NCBI GenBank assembly: GCA_023144585.1
Contig: JAGLFI010000011.1
Location: 1-11,686 of the forward strand
Length of the DNA: 11,686 bases
Direction: 5' to 3'
From: Desulfobacula sp.
Lineage (GTDB): Bacteria; Desulfobacterota; Desulfobacteria; Desulfobacterales; Desulfobacteraceae
The notes beneath the pieces were generated by a model. It searched no databases and was not told the DNA's origin. It saw nothing but the letters and a program-made list of their open reading frames with translations. The first letter of the stretch is position 1. Every line of letters starts with the position of its first letter. The translations under genes and the position numbers were made by a program. Shown piece after piece: positions 7,445 to 11,369 of the stretch.

Positions 7445-7480
7445 TTAGTTGTTGCCAACGGTCAGATTATCGACTATCTA
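7445..7480 (-). other. In-frame amber codon plus ten-codon BON extension
   Basis: Reading on from the TAG (7478-7480) in the same minus-strand frame gives IVDNLTVGNN and then TAA at 7445-7447. This matches the final strand of a BON domain. The TAG stands at the position of Arg in the first repeat (VRRIE against NR-stop-IVD). The extension stops 18 nt short of the dnaE stop codon. Whether it is translated cannot be told from sequence. Confidence 0.6.
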
Positions 7481-8038
7481 TCGATTTCCACCAACCTTCC
7501 GTACAATATAAAGAGTTCTTTCTTTTTTTTTTTGTGATTTAACAATACCTGTCACTGTGATGATATTATTATTGGTATCAACATCAATATTGGTAGACCG
7601 GATATCCGGATCTTTTAGAAGCTCCGTTCTTATTTTGCTTGTAAGGATAGTATCATCTAGAATCTGACCAAAAGTGGTTTCACCGACAAGGAGCTGGTTC
7701 TCAATCCTTCTGACACCTTCAACCCCTCTTGCAATGTCTGCTGCCATCCTTCGTTGATATGAAGATTCAACCACTCCGATGAGGTAAACCACGCCGTTTA
7801 ATACATCCACGTCAATCTGCCGTGCCTTTACAGAGTTATCTGAAATCATTTTGATTTTAACGGTTGCGGAAATAATGGAATCGTCCACCATAGTACCGAG
7901 GGATCGTTCATCTGTGGCGCCTTTATATCCGCCATAGACAACAGCACCACCAACAACCGCAGCACCCGTAGCGCCACAGCCGCTGAAGATTAAGGAAGTT
8001 ATCAATGCAAGAGATAAAAATAAATATCGGAAATTCAT
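7478..8038 (-). CDS. BON-domain outer-membrane lipoprotein (DolP/OsmY-like), ends at in-frame TAG
   Basis: The 186-residue protein has a lipoprotein signal peptide with FSGC, so cleavage and lipidation at Cys21 are likely. No Asp follows the Cys, which favours outer-membrane sorting. A Gly/Ala-rich stretch follows (22-42), then two BON domains at about 48-118 and 122-186. BON proteins bind phospholipid membranes; DolP (YraP) in E. coli has this architecture and supports outer-membrane integrity, so a similar role is inferred. The second BON domain stops short at VGGNR followed by TAG. The same frame continues as IVDNLTVGNN before TAA at 7445-7447, which completes the domain and aligns with VEGVRRIENQLLVG of the first. 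An 11-A run lies at codons for QKKK. AAGGAGG (8045-8051) sets the start. A truncated but possibly functional gene, or a readthrough gene. Confidence 0.85.
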   Translation of the reverse strand: MNFRYLFLSLALITSLIFSGCGATGAAVVGGAVVYGGYKGATDERSLGTMVDDSIISATVKIKMISDNSVKARQIDVDVLNGVVYLIGVVESSYQRRMAADIARGVEGVRRIENQLLVGETTFGQILDDTILTSKIRTELLKDPDIRSTNIDVDTNNNIITVTGIVKSQKKKERTLYIVRKVGGNR

Positions 8039-10055: not shown

Positions 10056-11369
10056 TTAATCAATAATTTTACCTATAATATTCATGTCTTTATCACACTG
10101 TTCAGGGATAAGATCAATAATTTTCCCTCCAAGATCATGGCAGTTACTTAAAAAGATCATTAAATAATTGGATGTAACAGCCTTAAGCATCCCTGTTCTA
10201 TCATCAGGCTTATGCTGTACAAGACCCGTAAGTTTTTTGTTCAAATTAACATTAACAAAAACCTTTCTTTTTATTTTGCCAAGTTCCCGCATCTTTGCAC
10301 ATCGTTGCTTGATGATTTGCGGATCAACCTTATTATCAAAATGATAAGCCGGAGTTCCTTTTCTGGCAGAAAACGGAAAGACGTGAAGATAGGATATGGG
10401 AAGCTTTTTAATCAATTGATACGTATTTTCAAATTGTTCATCTGTTTCCGAAGGAAATCCGATCAATGTATCTACACCAATACCGGCGCTGGGAATTTTT
10501 TCGTGAATTTTATGGATGATTTCTTCAAACAGCGAGGCATCATAGGGCCGCTTCATTTTTTTTAATATATCATCATCCCCGGATTGCAGGGGAATGTGGA
10601 AATGATCGCATAAAATATTTTCCTGTTTGGCAAGATTAATAATACCGTCATTGATTTCACCGGGTTCTATGGAACTGAGCCTTATCCTGTGAACAGGTCT
10701 TTCATCGTTAATTTTTTCAAGCAATTGCAGCAGCGATGTTTTTTTTTTAAAATCAAGGCCATACATACCGGTATGGATTCCTGTGATGATAACCTCTTTA
10801 AACCCTGAATCATTCAACTCTCTCAAATGTTTAAAAACTTTTTTTTGAGGCATGCTCACGGAAGACCCCCTGGCATGGGGGACAATACAATAGGTGCAAA
10901 ACGCATTGCAGCCATCCTGTATCTTAAGATATACTCTTGTCATTTCACCCTTTACCGCTTGATCAAAACTTTGGAATATATTTGCTTTGCTGTGATCAAT
11001 TTTTTTAAATGTCAAGGGGAACTTGTCTTCAAAAATAGATGCAACATGGTCTGCAATTTGAATCTTGTCTTTATGGCAGACAATCTGGTGAACTTGTTCA
11101 ATTTTTTTTATTTGATCAGAATCGGTCTGGGCATGGCATCCTGTGACAATCACTTTTGCATCAGGGTTTTCCCTGATAATTTTTCGAATGGCCTGTCTTG
11201 ACTGCATACTGGCTTTGGATGTGACAGAACAGGTGTTGATGATAAAAACATCTGCTTTTTGTTTTTTTTCACCCTTTATCCAACCCTGTTTTTCAAGGCT
11301 TAATGCAATACCGTCACTTTCATATTGATTGACTTTGCATCCCAGGGTTTCTATATAAAATTTCTTCAT
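10056..11369 (-). CDS. mtaB: tRNA (N6-L-threonylcarbamoyladenosine(37)-C2)-methylthiotransferase MtaB
   Basis: A 437-residue radical-SAM enzyme that converts t6A37 to ms2t6A37 in tRNAs reading ANN codons. The N-terminal methylthiotransferase domain has three cluster cysteines: Cys11 in TLGCKVNQYES, Cys47 in NTCSVT and Cys78 in TGCHAQ. The radical-SAM motif CNAFCTYC holds Cys154, Cys158 and Cys161, followed by IVPHARG. HIPLQSGDD (about 257-265) and GVDTLIGFPSE are typical of the family, and a TRAM RNA-binding domain occupies about 370-435. TLGCKVNQ and the NTCSVT wording fit MtaB rather than MiaB or RimO; that subfamily call is from recognition. The ATG overlaps the mnmA stop in ATGA, so translation is coupled to mnmA. 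Its substrate depends on a TsaC-type enzyme such as the one at 1562-2170. Confidence 0.95.
   Translation of the reverse strand: MKKFYIETLGCKVNQYESDGIALSLEKQGWIKGEKKQKADVFIINTCSVTSKASMQSRQAIRKIIRENPDAKVIVTGCHAQTDSDQIKKIEQVHQIVCHKDKIQIADHVASIFEDKFPLTFKKIDHSKANIFQSFDQAVKGEMTRVYLKIQDGCNAFCTYCIVPHARGSSVSMPQKKVFKHLRELNDSGFKEVIITGIHTGMYGLDFKKKTSLLQLLEKINDERPVHRIRLSSIEPGEINDGIINLAKQENILCDHFHIPLQSGDDDILKKMKRPYDASLFEEIIHKIHEKIPSAGIGVDTLIGFPSETDEQFENTYQLIKKLPISYLHVFPFSARKGTPAYHFDNKVDPQIIKQRCAKMRELGKIKRKVFVNVNLNKKLTGLVQHKPDDRTGMLKAVTSNYLMIFLSNCHDLGGKIIDLIPEQCDKDMNIIGKIID

Follow-up and report, generated by a model that had tools for sequence, protein, structure and literature searches.

The window analyzed here, 11,686 bp in length, corresponds to the complete contig C13 of a draft assembly comprising 315 contigs and 1.52 Mb, which is 68.33% complete and from which only 6 tRNAs were recovered. 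By sequence similarity the draft genome is Desulfobacula-like: the locus closest to the BON-domain protein considered below (82% identity) lies in Desulfobacula sp., and the homologues of this protein include one of Desulfobacula toluolica. Direct reading of the genome covered 81 of the 315 contigs (630,115 bp, 41%), which contain 11,344 N. The window encodes on its minus strand a dual-BON lipoprotein whose reading frame is closed by a TAG codon shortly before the end seen in relatives, with the following features:

7478..8038, minus strand: dual-BON lipoprotein gene terminated by TAG, 186 aa (open reading frame and Pfam)
7478..7480, minus strand: TAG codon in frame (open reading frame and orthologue comparison)
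7448..7477, minus strand: ten codons after the TAG, IVDNLTVGNN, like the ends of full-length relatives
7445..7447, minus strand: TAA, the next in-frame stop
7454..7657, minus strand: second BON domain, extending across the TAG (58.1 bits, one TAG inside)
7682..7885, minus strand: first BON domain (64.7 bits)
7791..8030, minus strand: mosaic segment with one mismatch to the relative G025 (exact runs at 7872-8030 and 7791-7870)

The probably truncated second BON domain

The 186-aa protein ends in ...RKVGGNR and does not contain the ten residues encoded downstream of the TAG, which closely resemble the ends of full-length relatives. An earlier note on this DNA had described a frame that stops at TAG after VGGNR and runs on through IVDNLTVGNN to a TAA, in position-by-position register with the end of the first repeat; both descriptions hold, and the coordinates 7445-7480 are exact. 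Its tally of the stops of ten genes is also correct, with eight TAA, the TAG of the BON gene, and one TGA (11366-11368, in a partial gene at the right edge). That the TAG is the only one among the ten carries no weight as a signal, as the probability of at least one TAG in ten genes is 0.81 at the frequency measured in this genome (81 of 536).

In a profile search of the genome, the match to the second BON domain covers profile positions 1-68 of 69 with one in-frame TAG inside, so that the gene has the two BON domains of DolP- and OsmY-type proteins, the second of them spanning the TAG. The whole-protein Pfam BON score is 105.1 bits for the 186-aa form, in which two BON stretches are still matched, and rises to 113.4 bits on read-through of the TAG, a loss of 8.3 bits on stopping. 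The read-through protein matches the PDB sequences of YraP/DolP 7a2d (E = 8.1e-20) and 8rjx (E = 5.8e-19). Judged by sequence, the protein resembles the envelope proteins DolP (YraP) and OsmY, in which an N-terminal signal with a Cys precedes two BON domains, but unlike in them the second BON domain as written would be without its last strand. Proteins of this kind are further characterized by binding of anionic phospholipid via helix 1 of BON2. The topology given for the BON domain in PMC7806268 is alpha-beta-beta-alpha-beta, and on this topology together with homology the ten lost residues should correspond to the last beta strand of the second domain.

The TAG position in relatives and the mosaic structure of the gene

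We examined the 19 best loci besides the gene's own (L012-L030), 16 of which were read by motif and three (L023, L027, and L030) inspected separately. The codons found at the site in the 16 loci are AAG (4), AAA (1), CAG (4), CAA (3), GAG (1), ACG (1), AAC (1), and AGG (1); at the corresponding position L023 has Gln and L027 a sense codon. The second BON domain is kept in 18 of the 19 loci, and none of these 18, including those in pyl-bearing genomes, has a stop at the site, while the downstream extension is matched in the relatives. The remaining locus (L030:1483-1845, in the genus relative G012) stops behind its first BON domain and therefore lacks the site, being a natural single-BON form within the genus. 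A broader alignment of homologues comprised 119 of the 120 listed proteins (the gene's own product being omitted) out of 249 found in all, and gave Q in 73, K in 17, R in 11, other residues in 13, and a gap in 5 at this position. Two of the five homologues lacking the site (P0024 and P0041) are close to the C-terminal half of our protein, and Asn 191, after the site, is kept in 114 of 119. By these alignments the position of the TAG is a variable one, at which most relatives have Gln, Lys, Arg, or Glu; it had been read as Arg or Lys by analogy with the first repeat, but homologues have mainly Gln there.

The two halves of the gene have different affinities. The protein encoded by codons 1-88 is identical to P0002 at 88 of 88 residues and to P0009 at 87 of 88, whereas the best matches of the remainder are P0008 (89%) and P0012 (88%), with P0002 at only 69%. 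At the DNA level, positions 7791-8030 have one mismatch in 240 bp to G025, and 100-bp windows outside this segment have 60 to 93% identity on the left and 72 to 94% on the right. Trees of the half-genes place the BON gene in different clades (support of 0.936 for the first half and 0.873 for the second), and the first-half clade is set apart at 1.000 in the second-half tree. On this pattern, 7791-8030 was either acquired as a short tract by recombination or results from a chimeric contig. Since the C-terminal half belongs with Gln-bearing proteins, the lost residue was probably Gln rather than Lys or Arg, and the AAG-to-TAG change proposed in the earlier note is not the best guess for the origin of the codon.

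Pyrrolysine machinery and the use of TAG as a terminator

Pyrrolysine has been published in Desulfobacula-related Deltaproteobacteria (PMC8318568), and its occurrence in this bacterial group, on which the suggestion of UAG decoding had drawn, is borne out by our survey of the genus. Our tRNA-Pyl pattern, built from seven genus pylT genes, was positive in 13 of 25 genus relatives; it replaced an earlier pattern derived from two order-level relatives that matched only 1 of 17 genomes and was uninformative, as it missed G041, where ARAGORN found tRNA-Pyl. The distribution of tRNA-Pyl in the genus is patchy, and G010 and G014 each have two copies. PylS exceeded the cut-off in 9 of the 25 relatives, and G019, with 159.6 bits on a partial frame, would be a tenth. 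In three relatives (G010, G021, and G023) pylT is present and PylS is not over the cut-off, which is probably explained by contig breaks: the pylT contig of G010 (C205, L149) ends inside what we take by eye to be a PylC-like frame adjoining a PylSn-like frame, and those of G023 (C184, L151) and G021 (C651, L152) presumably end inside PylB-like frames.

The genus pattern found no pylT in the 1.52 Mb of the genome studied here. The best PylS match is 24.1 bits, below the cut-off of 178.15, and the two PylC matches, as markers of pyrrolysine biosynthesis, are likewise sub-threshold (34 and 25.8 bits versus a cut-off of 248.3). No CTA anticodon is present among the 6 tRNAs recovered or in the 81 sampled contigs. 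The MTTB profile has zero matches in the 1.52 Mb, which thus contain no MttB-type methyltransferase with an in-frame TAG. We searched 19 genus relatives for the same family: all 9 with pylT have MTTB matches (6 to 28 each), and among the matches listed a TAG-containing one occurs in 8 of the 9; of the 10 without pylT, 5 have no MTTB and 5 have 2 to 16 matches, with no TAG-containing one among the matches listed. The lack of MTTB in our genome is more in keeping with absence of the cassette than with its presence. As the draft is 68% complete and yielded 6 tRNAs, the absence of pyl genes from it is weak evidence and not proof.

The case is like that of the organisms described in PMC8318568 in that it concerns the same genus or close kin, an in-frame UAG, and a group in which about half of the sampled relatives have tRNA-Pyl. 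As described there, however, UAG occupies a conserved position in the active site of trimethylamine methyltransferase, whereas here it lies at a variable site of a BON lipoprotein whose orthologues are without it, in a genome where no pyl gene scored above threshold.

TAG is an ordinary terminator in this genome. Among mechanically defined open reading frames of at least 100 aa, taken longest first from the 630,115 bp, TAG ends 81 of 536, TAA 314, and TGA 141, a usage similar to that of G008, a member of the genus that is assembled as one contig and lacks pylT, where TAG terminates 52 of 313 frames in 400 kb. The expectation that genomes with pyl genes avoid TAG as a stop found no counterpart in the stretches sampled: in seven stretches around pylS from pyl-bearing genus members there is no visible depletion, with TAG terminating 17 of 91 frames, some of which may be pieces of mttB genes split by TAG. 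In the tRNA-Pyl carriers G018 and G013, the orthologous BON gene is terminated by TAG at its normal end, so that TAG terminates the BON gene even in species that encode pyrrolysine.

We also considered genome-wide recoding of TAG and rejected it, as the lengths of post-stop extensions do not set TAG apart: the mean extension in the genome's own frames is 46 codons after TAG, 42 after TGA, and 53 after TAA, and extensions of at least 100 codons follow 11 of 81 TAG, 14 of 141 TGA, and 38 of 314 TAA stops. A ranking of these extensions by codon score was set aside because it was judged to recover mostly adjacent genes sharing one frame.

Interrupted genes in the draft and the reading of the TAG

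Other conserved genes in the draft are also interrupted by in-frame stops. A filter for split-like frames (a run-on of at least 40 codons after the stop and no ATG in the first codons) returned 49 candidates in our sample, of which 28, chosen by hand, were translated across the stop and scanned with Pfam. The stop falls within a matched domain in 7 of the 28, six times as TGA (ClpB, acyl-CoA dehydrogenase, radical SAM, rhomboid, molybdopterin oxidoreductase, and an ArsP-type permease) and once as TAG (a penicillin-amidase-like frame). Two further candidates are borderline, with the match extending 6 residues (TGA, L069) or 1 residue (TAG, L111) beyond the stop, and the remaining 19 have no listed domain stretch across it. 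The ClpB gene (L101:8688-11300, on contig C305 of the same draft) is a full-length frame of 871 codons with a TGA at codon 319, a TAA at codon 596, and no frameshift. Nonsense-like interruptions by TGA also occur in the frames for acyl-CoA dehydrogenase (L111:461-2287), radical SAM (L093:2457-3365), and rhomboid (L084:4356-5330), and by TAG in the penicillin-amidase-like frame (L092:3-854).

Some of the TGA codons are of another appearance. That of the molybdopterin frame (L100:2340-4379) lies where we take formate dehydrogenases to have their selenocysteine, and in-frame TGA codons occupy selenocysteine-like places in a CCG-domain protein (L071:3783-4817, NTE-U-GH) and in the ArsP-type permease (L116:6821-7897, GG-U-GC). 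The latter two may be Sec sites, in which case the permease may be an unusual selenoprotein. Thus one TGA interruption at least, and perhaps as many as three, would seem to be selenocysteine sites and not damage, and the remaining interruptions look like nonsense, with all three stops represented.

Counted without overlap, the candidates number 33 in 630 kb of our genome (5.2 per 100 kb) and 13 in 400 kb of G008 (3.2 per 100 kb, or 14 candidates and 3.5 per 100 kb when G008 is cut into 8-kb pieces); these are filter counts, the Pfam scan having been applied to our own candidates alone. The excess over G008 is modest, and on this evidence the TAG of the BON gene is not the sole site of its kind in the draft but one among several.

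Two readings of the codon had been offered at the outset, a fresh nonsense mutation and decoding of UAG; the first fits the evidence gathered here, and the second finds no support in the pyl gene searches, the use of TAG, or the orthologues. Very probably, UAG terminates in this gene, and a private nonsense change, in the organism or in the draft consensus, ends the protein at 186 aa. A single-codon change to TAG at a variable position, private to this genome, would leave UAG to act as a plain stop; the ten residues, and with them the last strand of the second BON domain, would be removed, presumably with a mild phenotype or none. This is generally the form that a private nonsense change takes in a draft genome, affecting one codon in a single genome, with intact downstream sequence and other genes interrupted, and the present case shows no difference in kind. 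Some observations stand against this reading: the codons after the TAG still resemble those of relatives, as read-through predicts, although ten codons decay slowly; pyl genes are common in the genus, and their absence from so incomplete a draft weighs little; some of the TGA interruptions look like selenocysteine sites; and the excess of split-like frames over G008 is modest.

It is about equally probable that the change is a real one in the organism and that it exists in the draft consensus alone. The latter, a sub-case of the preferred explanation to which we give slightly less than an even chance, supposes that the organism has a sense codon and that the draft merges reads of coexisting strains. 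The stops of three kinds in other conserved genes, two of them in ClpB, the higher density of split-like candidates than in G008, the abrupt switch of closest relative within the BON gene, and the many contigs and N positions of the draft all fit such an error, but real nonsense changes together with real recombination would give the same picture, and the TGA excess may partly reflect selenocysteine. It is also conceivable, though improbable, that the protein is functional in its shorter form, which would be tolerated or selected, and that the end of the second BON domain, or the whole of it, is dispensable. The single-BON orthologue of G012 slightly raises the odds of this and slightly lowers those of a plain nonsense change, and by its sequence suggests that loss of the domain's end is bearable; homologues without the aligned site, two of them near our C-terminal half, point the same way. 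The five gapped homologues may, however, reflect contig ends or misassembly, and the conservation of the motif after the site and of the second domain in nearly all loci argues against dispensability.

Decoding of UAG as pyrrolysine in an envelope protein that is not a methyltransferase, with the pyl cassette in the unassembled part of the genome, is unlikely, and we consider it very doubtful even beside a functional short form. It would have a Gln or Lys codon drift to TAG at a tolerant site because amber is translated, and it draws on the frequency of pylT among relatives, including G025, the near-match to part of the BON gene; on the TAG-containing MTTB genes of relatives; on the roughly one-third of the genome that is missing; and on the intact codons after the TAG. 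Against it are the 1.52 Mb without pylT, MTTB, or PylS or PylC over the cut-off, the sense codons at the site in orthologues of pyl-bearing genomes, and the free use of TAG as a terminator. To our knowledge there is also no catalytic reason for pyrrolysine in a BON domain. The faintest chance of all falls to another amber suppressor tRNA, or basal read-through, yielding some full-length protein. Some read-through of UAG is normal, and with 6 tRNAs recovered most of the tRNA set is unseen; no CTA tRNA occurs among those recovered or in the 81 contigs, however, and TAG is a common terminator here. A private nonsense change, in the organism or in the draft, is therefore the explanation that we favor.

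If the codon were decoded, it would place pyrrolysine outside the methylamine methyltransferases, at a neutral site, and would mark the beginning of a stop-to-sense reassignment. In a genus this rich in pyl genes, with tRNA-Pyl in about half of the members sampled, a draft genome with a lone in-frame TAG invites a call of recoding, and caution is needed; taken together, the checks of the cassette, of terminator use, of orthologues, and of other interrupted genes indicate that recoding is not needed to account for the TAG of the BON gene.
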